This document shows, one piece after another, positions 39,971 through 46,991 of a stretch of DNA of 64,000 bases. The notes under the pieces are model-generated. The model saw only the letters and a program-made list of their open reading frames with translations, had not been told where the DNA came from and did no database searches. The position numbers were made by a program, and so were the translations under genes. Position 1 is the first letter of the stretch. Each line of letters starts with the position of its first letter. Origin of the DNA: Vreelandella piezotolerans (lineage in GTDB: Bacteria; Pseudomonadota; Gammaproteobacteria; Pseudomonadales; Halomonadaceae); contig NZ_CP048602.1 of the NCBI RefSeq assembly GCF_012427705.1, positions 1,612,001-1,676,000 on the forward strand, in the 5' to 3' direction.

Positions 39971-40259
39971 GGGAAGGCGCTTCAGCGCGCGATGACCCAG
40001 CCACCCAGACATCGAAAAAGCCACCGATCCCGTAGCGCGGCGTAACGAACGAAGTGAGGCACCCGCGAAGCACCGCAACGCGGTGCCGAATGTGCCACCC
40101 AAGGCACGCAAAAATTTTCGCAAGGTAGGTGACCTAAGCAAATTTTATGAATAGAGTATGATTAAACAGGCAAAACGAGCGTGCAGGATAATAGGGGATA
40201 TGTAGCCTGATTCAAGGGGTTGTTATTTAAAATCAATGGGTTAGGTGTTTTTTGGGACT

Positions 40260-40329
40260 GTATAACATCAATGACTGTGATCGCTCAGTTATTGATGTTA
40301 TGTAGCGGGCTATATAACCACTGTTAGCC
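40260..40329 (+). other. Palindrome and candidate attI-like/upstream recombination site
   Basis: ATAACATCAATGACTG (40262-40277) pairs with CAGTTATTGATGTTAT (40286-40301) with one mismatch and an 8-base loop. Its ends GTATAAC and GTTATG resemble attC R boxes. A further TAAC-CACT-GTTA element leads to GTTAGCC at 40323-40329, which is the exact complement of the R'' box (GGCTAAC) at the end of the first cassette. It is either the remains of attI or an atypical attC; it lacks ordinary attC geometry. Confidence 0.5.
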
Positions 40330-40346
40330 ATCCTCAGGGAGAATAC

Positions 40347-41417
40347 ATGCCATCTTTGGATTTTGAGACGGAAAAGACAAATTTCCGAGATTACTACAAC
40401 GAAAATAGTGGGCTACTAGATGGAGCAAAGGGGTCATTCATCACTCTAGTGAATTCCTTAATCAGAAGCTCCAGCGATATTGCTTTGTCAAAAATTGAAG
40501 GCCGAGTAAAAGATAGGGACGAATGCGTAAAGAAATTCAGCAGAAAATATCGAACAGATCTTGAATCAGAAGGCGACGAATATCAGATTATAGATCACAT
40601 CACCGACCTAATAGGCTTGCGGGTAGTTTGCCTCTATGAGGATGATATAGTCAAAATTAAAGATCTTTTGTGCGAGCATTTTGATGTTATTGATATAACT
40701 GACAAGATTTCACAGATTGAAAATACCGAAAACTCTTTCGGCTACAAGGGTCTCCATTTGGACCTGAAATTAAATGAACAAAGAAGGGGGCTTCCTGAAT
40801 ATTCGAAGTTCACAGATTTCCAGTTTGAAGTTCAAATACGGACGATAATACAGGACTCATGGAGCGTTATTGATCACAAGATTAAGTACAAAAAATCTAT
40901 ACCGAATTACCTTAAAAGACGAATTAACTCTCTAGCCGCGCTATTTGAGGTAGCAGATAGGGAGTTCAGAGAAATCCGAAATGCTACAGAAGAAAGTATA
41001 AGGGCAGAAGACGTACCTCAAGAACAAATCACTCAGGAAACCGATCAAGTTGAATCGGGTGAAGAAGCACCTAGGTTTACAATTTCCCCTTTAAACGCGT
41101 TCAGCTTTTTGAAGATAGCGCAGCACTTTTTTAACGGTTTTGAGTTCGAGTCCCATAAGGTGGACGGATTTACCGAAGAAATTGTGTCTCTGAAACCGGA
41201 TATAACTCGCGGAAAATTCAATTTCTATATGCGAGAGAATATCTCGCTAGTAAAGCGATATAAGGAGTTTTTCGAACATGAGTACCCAAATGATAAGTTG
41301 AATCCTTATACAATTATTAGGCACTGCCTATATAACGGTAATAAGGAAGCGTTTTCTAAATTGCTAACCAACCAATCAACCGAAACGTTTGAAGCATGGC
41401 TGGCAGAAAATGGCTAA
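40347..41417 (+). CDS. RelA/SpoT-domain alarmone synthetase-like protein (cassette 1)
   Basis: 356 residues, AT-rich, 18 bases after the GTTAGCC boundary, with AGGGAG 5 bases before the ATG. The nucleotide pyrophosphokinase domain (about residues 45-185) is clear: SKIEGRVKDRDECVKKF (GTP/ATP loop), ITDLIGLRVVCLYEDD, FGYKGLHLDL with stacking Tyr133, and FEVQIRTIIQDSWSVIDHK with Glu161 and Gln163. No HD hydrolase, TGS or ACT domain, so it is a small-alarmone-synthetase type. A C-terminal region of about 120 residues (from PRFTISPLNAFSFLKI) is unrecognised. Candidate growth-arrest toxin or stress synthetase. The stop TAA lies within the attC R'' box. Confidence 0.82.
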   Translation: MPSLDFETEKTNFRDYYNENSGLLDGAKGSFITLVNSLIRSSSDIALSKIEGRVKDRDECVKKFSRKYRTDLESEGDEYQIIDHITDLIGLRVVCLYEDDIVKIKDLLCEHFDVIDITDKISQIENTENSFGYKGLHLDLKLNEQRRGLPEYSKFTDFQFEVQIRTIIQDSWSVIDHKIKYKKSIPNYLKRRINSLAALFEVADREFREIRNATEESIRAEDVPQEQITQETDQVESGEEAPRFTISPLNAFSFLKIAQHFFNGFEFESHKVDGFTEEIVSLKPDITRGKFNFYMRENISLVKRYKEFFEHEYPNDKLNPYTIIRHCLYNGNKEAFSKLLTNQSTETFEAWLAENG

Positions 41418-41483
41418 CAAAGCGCTGCTGTCGGAAAAACTTTACGCTACGCTTCAAGTTTTCCGCAGAGCGCGGCGTTAGAT
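41412..41483 (+). other. attC site 1
   Basis: R'' GGCTAAC (41412-41418) and R' GTTAGAT (41477-41483) bound 72 bases. Inner arms GGAAAAACTT and AAGTTTTCC flank the TACGCTACGCTTC loop, with L-type arms GCGCTGCTG and CAGAGCGCGGC. R'' includes the stop codon of the RelA/SpoT gene. Confidence 0.9.
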
Positions 41484-41508
41484 TTCCGTTGCCACAAAGG
41501 AGGTTGTT

Positions 41509-42183
41509 TTGACCAAAGAGATAAAAGTGTTATCAAAAGATGAAGTGGCAACTAGTGTTGATCAATTTACAGCGGGATTGACGCAGTACCTCGGTGAGCT
41601 TGGGTTGCCTAATGAGCATGTCCTAGTTCCTGTTCAAGAGCGCCAACGGGTGATCGCTAACGTGCCTGATGTGATCGAGTTGATCGATGCTAATCGGAAA
41701 TCGACATCGATCTATCTGTCAAAATTTATTGCTGCCTGCGGGGCAGGATTGTTTGATGCCGCCCTTAACTTCATCTGGGACGAGACTGTTGTAAACCTTC
41801 GAAATAAAGTGGCACGTTTTGATTTAGAGTATTTTTATGACAGTGTCGTGACAGATACCAAGCGCAGAGCAAAACTGAAAGATGAAGATGATCTTCAAAA
41901 AATAGAAGAGTGGGAGTTGATACGGGGCTGCCATCTGACAGGAATACTTTCTGATATTGGTTACAAGCACTTGGACTATATAAGGGATATGCGGAATTGG
42001 GCTAGCGCAGCGCACCCAAACCAAAATGACCTCACTGGCTTTCAGTTGATATCTTGGCTGGAGACTTGTATTCGAGAGGTTATTGCAAAGGAGCCTGAAG
42101 GGCCTGTAATTGAGGTCAAGCGTTTTCTTAACAGTATTAGGGAAGGTCTGAATAACTGCCGATATTCATCAACGCTTACTTGA
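41509..42183 (+). pseudogene. 5' part of IS-interrupted HEPN-like gene (cassette 2)
   Basis: The genuine gene part is 41509-42140; the last 43 bases of the open frame are IS sequence. The TTG start has a perfect AAAGGAGGT 5 bases upstream. Residues 1-210 are helical; RNWASAAH (Arg162 to His169) near the end of a helix resembles the R-x4-6-H motif of HEPN ribonucleases, followed by PNQNDLTGFQL. Joined to 43301-44084 it would encode 471 residues in one frame. Function of the intact protein is unrecognised; HEPN assignment is tentative. Confidence 0.8.
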
Positions 42184-43296
42184 GCCGACAAAAAATCGAA
42201 AATTCAGACACTCTTCTCCCTTTCTTTGTGTATTTTTGCTCCTTTCCCGCTCATTGAGCGGGAAAGGAGCGCAATCGCCCTATTCCCATAGGTATTTCTC
42301 ACTGATCAGCAGGTTGCTGAACGCCGCCAGCAAGTGCAGGCGCTGAGTGTTTTTGGCCAGTCCACGATAGCGAGCCTTGCCATAACCAAAAACTTGTTTG
42401 ATGTACCGAAAGGGGTGCTCCACCTTGGCACGGATACTGGCTTTGATGTTTTCGACTTTCTGTCGCCTGGCATCTAGCTTCTTGCGTGTGCCAGGCCGTT
42501 TGGCAATATACCAAGAGATATCGTTGCGGTGCTTGTGCTCGTCGCGTTTTTGAATACCCAGGTAACCGGCATCACCGAAGACGCGTTGCTCTTCACCGTG
42601 AAGGAGCTTATCGGCAGGCACAATGTCATGGACATTGGCAGCCGTGGTCTCGATGCTGTGAATCAACCCAAGCTTATCGTCGACACCTATATGCATTTTC
42701 ATGCCAAAGTGCCAAGAGCTACCTTTTTTAGTCTGGTGCATTTCCGGATCGCGCTCGCCTTTTTTGTTTTTGGTGGAACTAGGCGCAGAGATGATAGTGG
42801 CATCGACAATGCTCCCTTCGCGCAGCATCAGGCCATTTTTCTCTAGGTGGTTGTTCACTTCCTGGAACAGCACCTTGCCAAGGCCGTGATGTTCCAGAAA
42901 ATGGCGAAACTTGAGAATCGTGGTTTCGTCCGGCAATCGGTCTAGTTTCAAACCGGCGAATTGGCGCATGGACTCGATCTCGTAGAGGGCGTCTTCCATG
43001 GCCGGATCGCTCAGGTTGTAAAACAACTGCATGCAATGGACGCGGAGCATGGCAGACAACGGATACGGAGGCCGCCCGCTCTCGCCCTTGGGGTAATAAC
43101 GGGCTATCTTCTTCTCCAGCTGCGTCCAGGGGATCAGCTTGTCCATCCGCTCCAGAAAGAGTTCGCGGCGAGTCTTTCTCTTCTTGTTCTGGTACTCGGC
43201 TTCGGAGAAGGTGATTTGATCCATGGCAGCACTGAAACCTATGCAGTTGACGATAGCCGTATTATCACTGATGGCAGTGACTTTTTCAGAGCTTCC
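42141..43296 (-). mobile_element. IS5-family insertion sequence
   Basis: 1156 bases bounded by imperfect inverted repeats: left GGAAGGTCTGAATAACTGCC (42141-42160) and right, read inward, GGAAGCTCTGAAAAAGTCAC. Flanking 4-bp duplications TTAG at 42137-42140 and 43297-43300 fit the YTAR target of IS5. It holds one transposase gene on the minus strand, and a perfect 15-bp inverted repeat (42238-42252 with 42256-42270) lies just past its stop. Confidence 0.93.
42280..43224 (-). CDS. IS5-family DDE transposase
   Basis: 314 residues with the IS5 N-terminal block (ERMDKLIPWTQLEKKIARYY, then RPPYPLSAMLRVHCMQLFYN) and DDE catalytic core: first Asp in GSIVDATIISAPSSTKNKK, second Asp in VFGDAGYLGIQKRDEH, and Glu in ASIRAKVEHPFRYIKQVFGY. 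Full length with no frameshift, so the element is likely active or recently active. It is transcribed against the cassette genes. Confidence 0.94.
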   Translation of the reverse strand: MDQITFSEAEYQNKKRKTRRELFLERMDKLIPWTQLEKKIARYYPKGESGRPPYPLSAMLRVHCMQLFYNLSDPAMEDALYEIESMRQFAGLKLDRLPDETTILKFRHFLEHHGLGKVLFQEVNNHLEKNGLMLREGSIVDATIISAPSSTKNKKGERDPEMHQTKKGSSWHFGMKMHIGVDDKLGLIHSIETTAANVHDIVPADKLLHGEEQRVFGDAGYLGIQKRDEHKHRNDISWYIAKRPGTRKKLDARRQKVENIKASIRAKVEHPFRYIKQVFGYGKARYRGLAKNTQRLHLLAAFSNLLISEKYLWE

Positions 43297-43300
43297 TTAG

Positions 43301-44084
43301 AAATACCACACTCACTGAGCAGGACTCCCAGTATATTCGGGCAGGAATCGAGTATTTACCTCCCGAGTTGGCAACTTCCGTACTCAGAACCTTATTTGGT
43401 ATGTACACAACCAAAGATGCGGCAGTTCAGATTAAAAGCAACATCAAGTTGGTGGCTGGCTCAGCGTGGACTGTTGCGCCAGATGAAGTTAAATACGAGT
43501 GTGGCTTTAAATACGCAACATTTGCATCAAACGGGGAGGTAGATAGAAAAGAGGCTGCCAACGAGTTCCTTTCCGTTGTTGGAGGCCTACCGTTTCTTCC
43601 AAATGATACGCTTGCGCTAGAAATGGCTGACAAAATTGACAGCCTATTTGCCGCCCATGCTGGATTTAATAATTTTCACAACGAGCCTGCTCACGCTCGA
43701 GCTCTTGATGCCTACGTTTCTTCTGCAGGCACGGTACCTGATGCCGTTCGAAAATCTTATGTTAAGACACTTGTGATGGCTCGAATTGGAAACGGTCATG
43801 GGGTGTCAGATATGGCTGTACCGTATTACGAACGCTTGATAACGAAATTTGGTGAGGCCGAGTTGCGAGAGGTGGCACTTCTTTTAACCGATCGAGAATT
43901 TTCATCCCGTGTTGGACTACGATCCTGTCTTTCAAATTTCAGGGCATTACTAGGGCGATTGGCGCCTCGAACTACTAATCAAGTCACTCAGCAGGCCTTT
44001 GCTCAGATACAAGGGGCTACCGATGCGCAAATCCCGAATTTAGGCAAAGACAGTGCATATAAACGGCTTCTGGGAGTACGATAA
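43301..44084 (+). pseudogene. 3' part of IS-interrupted HEPN-like gene (cassette 2)
   Basis: Continues the frame of 41509-42140 exactly after the right TTAG: 632 + 784 bases = 472 codons including stop. An open frame can restart from TTG at 43368, but the true N-terminus is across the IS. The region is mostly helical (KLVAGSAWTVAPDEVKYECG, ALALEMADKIDSLF-like, LTDREFSSRVGLRSCL). No known domain recognised. The stop is followed directly by attC 2, whose R'' box complements the GTTAGAT at the cassette's left end, showing both halves belong to one cassette. Confidence 0.8.
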
Positions 44085-44161
44085 ATCTAACCAGGCCATG
44101 CACCGGATGCCAAAACCTGCGCTTCGCTACGGCTTTGTCACCGGTGATGGCAGCGTTACAT
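44085..44161 (+). other. attC site 2
   Basis: R'' ATCTAAC (44085-44091) and R' GTTACAT (44155-44161), 77 bases. Inner arms CACCGGATGCCAAAACC and GGCTTTGTCACCGGTG pair imperfectly with extrahelical bases around TGCGCTTCGCTAC. It shares the CGGATGYC...CACCGGTG core with attC 3 and 5. Confidence 0.9.
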
Positions 44162-44179
44162 CCCTACGAAGAGGTCTTC

Positions 44180-44548
44180 ATGAAACATACTTTTTCACAG
44201 CGAGTGGCACCCTACGTCGAGGTTGAGCTGACGAATGCCAAGCGGGCAAGGTCAGCGGGTGATACCCAGCAGGAATTTTCCCATCTCGAACGGGCGCATG
44301 TGCTTGGGCAGGAATCAACGTATTGGCACGTTAAGGTCCATTTGATGATGCTGGCATGGGCAATTCGTAATCGTTCATTTCGAGAAACGCTAGGTCAGGC
44401 TTTTCGGATTGTTGGTGCTGCGACGAAAACTGTATTTGGGTTGGTGCCACAAGGCAATACGGGTGGTGCCAATGTGAGCCCGTTCAAGAAGATGCCAATT
44501 GCACCGGAGTTGGCTACTTTGATTCAAAAGGCCAAGTCCGGTGTATAA
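44180..44548 (+). CDS. DUF3703 family protein (cassette 3)
   Basis: 122 residues matching the DUF3703 pattern: EFSHLERAHVLGQESTYWHV, then HLMMLAWAIRNRSFRETLGQ, AFRIVGAATKTVFGLVPQGN, TGGANVSPFKKMPIAPELA. The ATG at 44180 has GAAGAGG upstream; a 15-codon extension to 44135 would run into the attC and is rejected. DUF3703 has no established activity; it looks like a small helical cytoplasmic or membrane-associated protein. The stop codon lies inside the next R'' box (GTATAAC). Confidence 0.85.
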   Translation: MKHTFSQRVAPYVEVELTNAKRARSAGDTQQEFSHLERAHVLGQESTYWHVKVHLMMLAWAIRNRSFRETLGQAFRIVGAATKTVFGLVPQGNTGGANVSPFKKMPIAPELATLIQKAKSGV

Positions 44549-44620
44549 CCATACGCGTCACACGGATGTCCTTTACGCCGCTCCGCTCTGTAAAGACCAC
44601 CGGTGCGCTATGCGTTATGT
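44543..44620 (+). other. attC site 3
   Basis: R'' GTATAAC (44543-44549) and R' GTTATGT (44614-44620), 78 bases. Arms ACACGGATGTCCTTTAC and GTAAAGACCACCGGTG around GCCGCTCCGCTCT. Confidence 0.9.
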
Positions 44621-44634
44621 TTTCTGGAGAGATC

Positions 44635-45105
44635 GTGCGTAAAGAAGATATTAATGACCCTTTAAAGGAGTATGCGTTTGATTTCTTTTATTGGTTCTCA
44701 CGATTTGAGTTTGCGCTTAAAGAAAACCGTTTCTTAAAACGCAATGGCGCTGGAGAAAATGCAGAACCGGGGTGGGATGCGTTCGTAGAAAGGTACGCAG
44801 AGACGTTCGAACACACAGCGGAAACCAATAGGCTAATTGAACTTAACCCCAAAAGACAAAAGGTTGGGGAGCATTCAGACCTTCAATGGCGCGAAGTAGG
44901 CTTAGCAGATTGTAACTCTGAACTCTGTAGAGTTGTTCGCTTACTTAAAACGATCAGAAACAACCTCTTTCACGGAGGTAAACACGGTGCAGAGGGCTGG
45001 GATAATCCAGAACGAACACAAGACTTATTGGTTACAGGTAAATCAATCCTAGATCAATTGGCAAGGTTGGCTGACATTGAAGCAGACTATACCCAATACT
45101 ATTAA
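44635..45105 (+). CDS. HEPN-like small protein (cassette 4)
   Basis: 156 residues from the GTG at 44635 (GGAG 5 bases upstream); an ATG at 44617 inside the R' box is an alternative. Helical, aromatic-rich N-terminus (EYAFDFFYWFSRFEFALKEN), and LLKTIRNNLFHGGKHG, with Arg108-x4-His113 matching the HEPN catalytic R-x4-6-H signature, commonly RN-x-x-x-H. HEPN proteins are often RNase toxins in defence or toxin-antitoxin pairs; no separate antitoxin is seen in the cassette, so it may be solitary or non-toxic. Confidence 0.72.
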   Translation: MRKEDINDPLKEYAFDFFYWFSRFEFALKENRFLKRNGAGENAEPGWDAFVERYAETFEHTAETNRLIELNPKRQKVGEHSDLQWREVGLADCNSELCRVVRLLKTIRNNLFHGGKHGAEGWDNPERTQDLLVTGKSILDQLARLADIEADYTQYY

Positions 45106-45107
45106 AA

Positions 45108-45180
45108 ACATAACAAGCAAAGGCAGCATCGCCCTGCGGGCTGGACGCGCTACCGCGCGCCGCTGCTTTGGGCGTTAGCT
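45108..45180 (+). other. attC site 4
   Basis: R'' ACATAAC (45108-45114) and R' GTTAGCT (45174-45180), 73 bases. Arms AAAGGCAGCATCG and CGCTGCTTTGG with a GC-rich variable loop. The R'' box is the exact complement of the GTTATGT that starts the same cassette. Confidence 0.88.
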
Positions 45181-45184
45181 GTGA

Positions 45185-45213
45185 TTGTCCCATCCGAGAA
45201 GTGATACTATAGT
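45185..45213 (+). promoter_or_regulatory. Cassette-borne promoter of the toxin-antitoxin pair
   Basis: TTGTCC (45185-45190), 17-base spacer, TATAGT (45208-45213). The palindrome ACTATAGT (45206-45213) overlaps the -10, a usual position for Phd-type autorepressor binding. Cassettes often lack promoters; TA cassettes are the exception. Confidence 0.5.
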
Positions 45214-45243
45214 GCCACTAACAGTCTGATTCAGGGTGAGCCC

Positions 45244-45501
45244 ATGAAAGTCGAGCTTGTTACGAACCTCAAGCGCCAAGCCACAAAAATTCTGGCCGAT
45301 CTGCACCTGTCTAAAGAACCGGTACTGATCACGGAGCATGGCCAGCCATCCGCATACCTTGTCGATGTGCAGGATTACGAGTTTATGCAGCGCCGGCTTG
45401 AGCTGCTTGAGGGGCTCTCACGGGGAGAGCGTGCTGTACTTGAGGGAAGAACGTACAGCCAAAGTGAGGCTAGGGAGAAAATGAGTAAATGGCTGAAGTA
45501 A
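45244..45501 (+). CDS. Phd/YefM-family antitoxin (cassette 5)
   Basis: 85 residues with the Phd/YefM fold: ELVTNLKRQATKILADLHLS, VLITEHGQPSAYLVDVQDYE, then a C-terminal toxin-binding tail (GRTYSQSEAREKMSKWLK). It binds and represses its promoter and neutralises the ParE-type partner. The stop overlaps the toxin start by 13 bases. CAGGGTGAG precedes the ATG. Confidence 0.93.
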   Translation: MKVELVTNLKRQATKILADLHLSKEPVLITEHGQPSAYLVDVQDYEFMQRRLELLEGLSRGERAVLEGRTYSQSEAREKMSKWLK

Positions 45502-45791
45502 TCTGGACGGAGCCTGCCCTTCAAGAACTGGATGCCATCGCTGAGTACATCGCTCTGGATAATCCTGCTGCCGCAAGTCATCTGGTTAAAGAAGTTTTCG
45601 ATAAGACCGAGCGCTTGGCAGATTTTCCCCAATCCGGACGGATTCCTCCAGAGCTCCCTAATTCGGTATACAGGGAGGTAGTGGTTCCACCATGTCGCAT
45701 TTTTTATCGTGAGGATGGGCAGCGGGTTCTCGTTCTCTATGTCATGCGAGAGGAGCGGCAGCTTCGGGCGTACATGCTTGGGAACAGCTAA
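45489..45791 (+). CDS. ParE/RelE-superfamily toxin (cassette 5)
   Basis: 100 residues of the ParE/RelE fold: EVIWTEPALQELDAIAEYIA, PAAASHLVKEVFDKTERLADFP, SGRIPPELPNSVYREVVVPP and CRIFYREDGQRVLVLYVMRE. Whether it acts on gyrase (ParE) or ribosome-bound mRNA (RelE) cannot be told; the N-terminal helix pair favours ParE. Its TAA stop is part of the attC 5 R'' box (AGCTAAC). Confidence 0.92.
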   Translation: MAEVIWTEPALQELDAIAEYIALDNPAAASHLVKEVFDKTERLADFPQSGRIPPELPNSVYREVVVPPCRIFYREDGQRVLVLYVMREERQLRAYMLGNS

Positions 45792-45864
45792 CCAGGCGCG
45801 TCACTCGGATGCCTTTGTCTCCGCTTTGCTACGTCAAAGTCACCGGTGCGCTTCGGCGTTGAAC
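45786..45864 (+). other. attC site 5 (array end)
   Basis: R'' AGCTAAC (45786-45792) and R' GTTGAAC (45858-45864), 79 bases. Arms CGGATGCCTTTGTC and GTCAAAGTCACCGG around TCCGCTTTGCTAC. The R' box is also codons of the adjoining 5'-nucleotidase gene. Confidence 0.88.
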
Positions 45865-46467
45865 ATTGCGCTATTTTTGTCTGGCCACAAGCCGGACGTG
45901 GAGACCGCCATTGGCAGCGGCCCCCCGGCGGGGCAGGTGCTGGATTCCATGTTTGACGACGATGAAGACGACCAGACACTACGCATCGCTTTTGACTTCG
46001 ATGGCGTGCTGGCGGGCGACGAATCCGAGTCGGTCATGCAGGCATCAGGACTCACGGCCTTCCATGATCATGAAGTCAAGAACGTGATGCAGCCGCATCA
46101 CCCTGGGCCACTGAAAGAGTTCCTGGTACGCATTTCAAGAATCCAGTCGGCGGAAGAAGCGTACAAACAGCAGCACCCGGAGTATGAAAACCGTATACGC
46201 GTATCGATTGTCACGGCCCGCAATGCGCCTTCCCATGAACGCGCCTTGAAAACGCTGAAAAGCTGGGGTGTCATGGCCAACGATGCGTTTTTCCTCGGCG
46301 GAATCGAGAAGGGCAGAGTGCTGGGTGTGTTGAAGCCGCACATCTTCTTCGATGATCAGTCTGGCCATTTGCAGTCTGCCAGTGCGGTGGTGCCTTCTGT
46401 TCATATTCCGTTTGGTGTCACCAACCAGCCCAAGGCGAAGGCAGATGAGCTTTCTGCCGGGAGCTGA
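45856..46467 (+). pseudogene. 5'-nucleotidase (PF06189 type), N-terminally truncated at attC 5
   Basis: Readable from ALNIALFLSGHKPD (45856) to the stop. The HAD-like core is intact: IAFDFDGVLAGDE, VSIVTARNAPSHERALKTLK, AFFLGGIEKGRVL and LKPHIFFDDQSGH, all characteristic of bacterial cytosolic 5'-nucleotidases of about 300 residues. Roughly the first 100 residues are missing; the homology begins exactly at G^TTGAAC, the attC crossover point. No proper start or ribosome site is evident except a possible ATG at 45949. Probably non-functional. Confidence 0.8.
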
Positions 46468-46991
46468 CCCCATTCATCTTACAAGATGGGAACCGACATG
46501 ACCCTGATGACGCTCCTGTTATTCATACCTGCATGCTTTGCCCTGAACATGGCCCCCGGCCCCAACAATCTGCTCTCCATGGCGAATGCCAAGCGATACG
46601 GCAAACATGTTGCTGGGTGCATTTCGCTCAGCTCGGTGGCGCGGCCTCGCGGGTGCCTCGCTAATCGCTCGTTACCACGCGCTACAGGGGGCTGCCCTGG
46701 GTGGCGCGTCGCACCGTCGTGAGGCCATGTGCCCGGGATCGCTTTCTCGCCGTGAGTGCCATACCTTTTTATCGAGGCTCTGCTGCTTTGCGCGACTTGA
46801 ACGTCACCCTCTGGGGCGTCGGTGTGCACGCGCTGTACAAGGCTCATCAGTATTACCCGAGAGCCATATTCCGACGAAACACCTGCTTTGCCTAGGCAAC
46901 GTTTCCTCATGAAACGGCTAGGCGTTGTGGTTAACCTTTTCCATCCAATAGGTCCATCCAATAGGCGCTCGAACAGTCAAGGAGCGGCATC
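46468..46991 (+). pseudogene. Decayed region with LysE/RhtB exporter remnant
   Basis: From ATG 46498 about 40 residues match the LysE/RhtB N-terminus (TLLLFIPACFALNMAPGPNN, then LLSMANAKRYGKHVAG), then similarity stops near 46620. A second frame at about 46700-46895 has a protein-like stretch (DRFLAVSAIPFYRGSAALRD, then LNVTLWGVGVHALYKAHQYY) that I cannot assign; it may be a different gene fragment joined by deletion or frameshift. A short repeat of TCCATCCAATAGG occurs near 46943-46968. Confidence 0.6.

Follow-up and report, generated by a model that had tools for sequence, protein, structure and literature searches.

The window, i.e., the whole 64 kb stretch of DNA analysed here, contains an array of gene cassettes that begins next to a permease gene, behind a conserved module homologous to attI, and ends joined to a 5'-nucleotidase gene (Table 1). 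Five same-orientation attC-like sites separating five plus-strand cassettes had been proposed in the first-pass annotation. A search of both strands of the 64 kb at E ≤ 5 with R1, a covariance model built from 19 attC sites in congeneric genomes other than this one (of its 25 pairs, 20 show two-sided changes), accepted all five sites, all on the plus strand, and nothing further. The training sites are 19 among the 53 R1 attC matches in relatives; the R1 E-values are rough, as calibration was short, and the attC counts given below are lower bounds, as R1 misses long attC sites. Rfam yielded nothing above chance-level matches.

Table 1. Features of the cassette array and its edges (positions in the window).
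Feature	Position	Strand	Evidence or remark
attI module without intI	40133-40329	+	R2 match G000:C1:1652133-1652326; ~197 bases
Inverted repeat within attI, 15-base arms, conserved	40262-40301	+	covarying arms
-10-like box, TATAAC (other copies mostly TATAAT)	40313-40318	+	conserved across 46-copy alignment
Cassette 1 gene, RelA/SpoT-domain protein, 356 aa	40347-41417	+	PF04607 E 5.6e-17; PADLOC PDC-S33 E 4.5e-9
attC of cassette 1	41412-41483	+	R1 82.8 bits
Cassette 2 left reading frame (interrupted region), 224 aa	41509-42183	+	no family match
IS5-family transposase gene within cassette 2	42280-43224	-	NF033581 E 4.2e-102
Cassette 2 right reading frame, 238 aa	43368-44084	+	no family match
attC of cassette 2	44085-44161	+	R1 49.0 bits
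Cassette 3 gene, DUF3703 protein	44180-44548	+	PF12487 E 3e-39
attC of cassette 3	44543-44620	+	R1 39.5 bits
Cassette 4 gene, start codon tentative	44626-45105	+	no family match
attC of cassette 4	45108-45180	+	R1 31.0 bits
Cassette 5 Phd/YefM-type antitoxin gene	45244-45501	+	PF02604 E 2.3e-14
Cassette 5 ParE-type toxin gene	45489-45791	+	PF05016 E 1.9e-20
attC of cassette 5	45786-45864	+	R1 37.7 bits; R' box GTTGAAC (45858-45864) inside nucleotidase gene
5'-nucleotidase gene minus first part	45858-46467	+	PF06189 from profile position 117

The initial description of the cargo as rich in candidate growth-inhibition genes holds in part: the cargo comprises the RelA/SpoT-domain protein of cassette 1, the Phd/ParE-type pair of cassette 5, the DUF3703 protein, the cassette 4 protein, which matches no family, and the gene of cassette 2, split by an IS5 element and likewise without a family match. 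Among ten cassette proteins from five loci with the same permease, PADLOC finds GajA, bSEFIR, PDC-S21, Mrr-type/PDC-S02, and, weakly, PDC-S31, and has no match for the other five; the cargo roles named here are predicted ones. A Gabija GajA gene (L016:15462-17171, minus strand) is among the cassettes that G017 has at this locus.

At the left edge, the crossover lies at G40323^T40324, with the first cassette starting TTAGCC, and alignments with three same-genus relatives end at 40326-40327. The final ~180 bases before this stop resemble the stretch adjacent to intI at 14 of 20 intI loci of the genus (blastn, E ≤ 1e-4); the best match reaches 71% over 183 bases (E 2.7e-22), and the intI loci L064-L068 gave no blastn match to the module. 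Both R2, the model used to search for the module, and the leader profile contain intI-adjacent copies as training rows, and the blastn result is the independent evidence for homology. Judged by this homology, the left edge of the array is an attI, related to the attI that stands beside intI elsewhere in the genus, i.e., one of the components of a complete integron.

The module carries several conserved elements. In 29 sequences, 87.6% of the cells of the inverted repeat are paired, compared with 81.5% after shuffling and 35-42% when the arms are slid, and 36 cells show changes on both sides (13.6 in shuffles). The -10-like box stands just 5' of the G^TTA crossover in the alignment of 46 copies; there is no consensus -35 element, and a simple promoter scan makes no call there; the box is a possible Pc promoter. 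Of the 18 modules with intI homology, 10 have a LexA-like box (CTG-N10-CAG); among the 52 that lack such homology it was seen once, at locus C of the genome under study. The module is more conserved than the 4-fold degenerate sites of the permease gene in five of six comparisons (e.g., 0.83 vs 0.63 for G070), the exception being G062. Short repeats at 40005-40090 and 46632-46685 of the window recur several times in the flanks of relatives and are probably REP-like.

Three of the earlier claims concerned the boundaries and the integrase. The first was that in four of the five cassettes the 7-base left box is the exact reverse complement of the cassette's own R'' box, beyond what chance would give. 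The boxes are as described (GTTAGCC/GGCTAAC, GTTAGAT/ATCTAAC, GTTATGT/ACATAAC, GTTAGCT/AGCTAAC); in cassette 3, the exception, GTTACAT and GTATAAC agree at two of the four variable bases. Across the window and the relatives' loci, 61 of 92 consecutive boundaries match exactly, vs about six on average in shuffles; this test used 108 of 117 R1 matches (nine weak, partial, or lone ones were excluded) and was restricted to boundaries 150-2500 bases apart, a range that excludes the window's cassette 2. Exact matches were found at 31 of 54 attC-attC junctions and at 30 of 38 attI-attC junctions, where the shuffle mean is 2.6 and the maximum in 2000 shuffles is nine. By tally, the attI junctions match exactly in 21 of 26 cases in the lineage of modules without intI described below and in seven of eight cases at the window's locus. 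Hence cassettes start exactly at the G^TT of the module and, because of this exact box matching, we conclude that they entered at attI sites.

The other two claims, that the window has no integrase and that one should be sought chromosome-wide, led to the same answer. The genome is a single contig of 3.95 Mb, and the integron-integrase model finds nothing over its cut-off in all of it, the window included; weak matches below the cut-off were interpreted as tyrosine recombinases, XerC/D among them, and the intact IntI of a relative has no match in the genome at E ≤ 1e-12. With five attC sites by R1, where at least two are required, and no neighbouring integron-integrase, the array is a CALIN; it lacks the intI of a complete integron. 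IntI was found over the cut-off in 19 of 82 genomes of the genus, three of them with in-frame stops. Among 20 genomes with modules of the lineage without intI, an intact IntI is present in G049 alone. N-terminal remnants persist in eight and nothing in seven, and the remaining four show only short, near-C-terminal IntI matches that look XerC/D-like.

The module itself is widespread. R2 matches were identified in 77 of 82 genomes of the genus (our own included), with up to 13 per genome, and in 155 of 201 genomes of the family, representing 15 of 24 genera; among 185 genomes sampled from the class, our own genome alone matched (0/184 others). No match was found in plasmid or phage records. For 20 modules, hand-picked among the matches listed and before inspection (G041 and G060 were each used twice), attC sites lie downstream in 18 at E ≤ 0.05 (in L144 just at 0.012), and all 43 attC matches near these modules are on the same strand as the module. 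The two modules with no downstream attC are L154 and L142, where the contig ends ~120 bases on.

Our own genome has five R2 matches. The four other attI modules, at G000:C1 1003088-1003276 (L102), 735461-735620 (L104), 3441304-3441498 (L107), and 1545387-1545580 (L070), each have attC downstream. The last of these (locus B), where R1 gave just a weak match far downstream, was considered as a cassette-free site and this was rejected: a long site resembling attC stands there, and its R'' box matches the box of the module. Conversely, attC sites with no clear attI module are seen at G000:C1 2091312-2094631 (L105) and 286184-286267 (L106), with a weak partial module match (E 0.017) upstream of the L105 group. 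At three loci, L073 (G064), L074 (G078), and L075 (G002), two to four attI modules lie on the same strand inside a 15 kb stretch and are separated by attC sites; their grouping by upstream similarity suggests segmental duplication.

In a tree of 70 modules, 26 are separated from 44 with a bootstrap of 99. The smaller group comprises all 18 modules with intI homology and eight without it, including loci C and D of our genome. The 44 others, hereafter the orphan lineage, all lack intI homology nearby, over distances of up to 1,300 bases. The motif GTGACCNAAG is present in 39 of the 52 modules without intI homology and in none of the 18 with it. Eight modules at the window's locus form a clade (bootstrap 98), the same-locus exceptions being that of G018, which falls outside, and that of G016, which is truncated and absent from the tree. 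A second locus, next to cobalamin genes (locus B), is represented by a clade of 15 modules (bootstrap 99); cobO confirms six of these loci, and the other members were grouped by upstream similarity. The alignments behind the trees have about 200 columns, and a first tree had already been inspected when the groups to be tested were defined.

The module stands beside the same permease in ten species (nine by locus comparison plus G017, record L181). Named records with the flanking permease belong to Vreelandella and Halomonas, in line with the early assignment of the chromosome to the Halomonas type. A comparison of 3 kb of DNA and at most five large reading frames from each locus revealed no cassette gene shared between these species; the first cassettes are unrelated. 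The matches beyond the crossover are a 72-base attC shared by G000 and G017 and a weak 30% match between G016 and G062; others, between genes of G021 and G062 and of G016 and G018, were taken for chromosomal flank. Even G048 and G000, with 99% identical permease proteins, have different cassettes. Thus, rather than showing the same gene order with no boundary-precise differences, the relatives diverge exactly at the boundary. The permease was also examined at 27 named loci: five have a strong module match, six an intI-type attI, one a fragment, and 15 no match, five of these 15 having <1.5 kb of sequence on the relevant side. With a strong match at five of 27, this docking site is confined to part of the species. 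Beside the same permease, a truncated 5' end of an orphan module was seen beyond the 3' end of an intact or broken intI at seven of 14 intI loci scanned (L051, L184, L186, L191, L193, L194, and L198, of which L051 and L191 are apparently one record).

At the right edge, the end of the array is joined to the 5'-nucleotidase gene at GTTGAAC (window 45856-45864). The first 116 profile positions of the nucleotidase are absent, and from 45856 onward the sequence is homologous to its counterparts in G070, G017, and G023; DNA of G070 for the missing part has no match in our genome, in a search run with no positive control. Because the break falls at the recombination point, the arrangement suggests that the edge arose by recombination of attC with a chromosomal GTT site. 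Five shared bases at the junction (GCGTT) are compatible with an illegitimate deletion.

The array is a CALIN headed by its own orphan attI, which we consider to be, probably, a fixed docking site without an integrase whose cassettes were loaded in trans. An integrase gene is missing from the array, and the attI probably contributes a Pc promoter; the module belongs to an attI lineage without intI that occupies several chromosomal loci in Vreelandella and Halomonas. An integrase from elsewhere, be it a separate intI locus or a transient element, would have inserted cassettes, as circles, through attI × attC recombination at G^TTA; we infer that it probably acts in trans because the orphan-lineage modules have no intI homology nearby. 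Of the separate intI locus, the nearest relative would have kept a broken copy and our own genome nothing; each lineage would have supplied the shared docking site with genes of its own, and cassette 1 would presumably be transcribed from the attI module. With no integrase left in the genome, the array would now be stranded. The first-pass view of a stranded cluster therefore stands as far as the CALIN and the missing integrase are concerned, and falls short in that the array is not merely stranded, being headed by a conserved attI module that recurs at several loci per genome. The module, the IS5-family transposase gene in cassette 2, and the right boundary within the 5'-nucleotidase gene had all gone unnoticed in the first-pass annotation.

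The main rival, which we regard as unlikely, is that a complete ancestral integron at this locus loaded the cassettes with its own integrase, after which intI was deleted in place. Intact or broken intI genes do occur beside the same permease in other species, and decay of intI is common: remnants adjoin nine of the 20 hand-picked modules, and at locus C the attI of our genome keeps a LexA-like box with no trace of intI, where G048 retains a 149-aa part of it. A direct origin of the window's attI from a permease-linked intI integron is, however, unsupported by the tree, since the attIs of these integrons group with the intI-type and not with the window's module: when eleven of them were added, the split stayed at a bootstrap of 99. 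Moreover, no trace of intI was found beside the modules at the window's locus in the species tested, and the cassettes of G000 and G048 differ in spite of their nearly identical permeases.

We give still less credit to an exchange of whole arrays between strains by homologous recombination in the flanks and the module, with no integrase acting. The conserved flanks and module could serve as recombination arms, and intact intI is absent from most genomes tested; on the other hand, the attI box matches the R'' box of the first cassette exactly, which shows that cassettes were inserted at attI, and no orphan-lineage module was found with an intI for insertion in cis. Such an exchange is possible after cassette insertion. 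Hardly credible is a chance landing of the cassettes at unspecific chromosomal GTT sites with no attI on the left, for while such attG insertion is known (cited in PMC12444791) and the fusion of the fifth attC with the nucleotidase at GTTGAAC resembles such a site, the left sequence resembles intI-adjacent attI for some 180 bases, and many other loci have it together with cassettes.

The orphan attI loaded in trans may be compared with several known systems. CALINs are defined as clusters of attC sites lacking an integron-integrase (PMC9024848, PMC9668308), and were counted in about equal numbers to complete integrons (2961 vs 2760; PMC9024848). The window's array is like them in having several same-orientation attC sites with cassettes and no intI, and differs by the conserved attI module at its head. 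CALINs of Xanthomonas likewise lie away from intI at conserved loci, recurring across species at positions attributed to ancestral integron activity; the portion of that paper available to us mentions no attI head, unlike the array described here (PMC12444791). In Delta-attI-type cassettes of mobile integrons, attI-derived sequence is likewise found away from the intI side, where pieces of attI form the downstream site of a cassette in class 1 and 2 arrays (PMC12901181); in contrast, each array here is headed by a nearly full attI. Sedentary chromosomal integrons with intI from the same genus (L050-L068) have a homologous attI and the same kind of attC, whereas the window has no intI, and the LexA-like box is absent from the sampled orphan lineage. 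Thus, the CALIN as such is of a known kind, and an attI head from an integrase-less lineage followed by species-varying genes was not found described: in the literature searched, which left most subscription journals outside its coverage, no CALIN with an orphan attI at its head is reported.

A visible docking site at the head of the array, recurring across the family, makes the origin of CALINs, their loading in trans, and the use of a promoter testable. attI sites outside class 1 are poorly described and go undetected by IntegronFinder (PMC9024848, PMC9668308), and the module offers a route to finding them. The different genes behind the same site in related species suggest that an enzyme whose gene lies elsewhere can load stranded arrays. 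As a more tentative generalization, it is quite possible that Halomonas-type bacteria have a split integron, in which several inherited attI stations per chromosome, free of integrase and from an attI lineage of their own kept by selection, would receive cassettes in trans from an integrase gained and lost over time, and that many CALINs elsewhere may be such stations, with attI heads invisible to current software.
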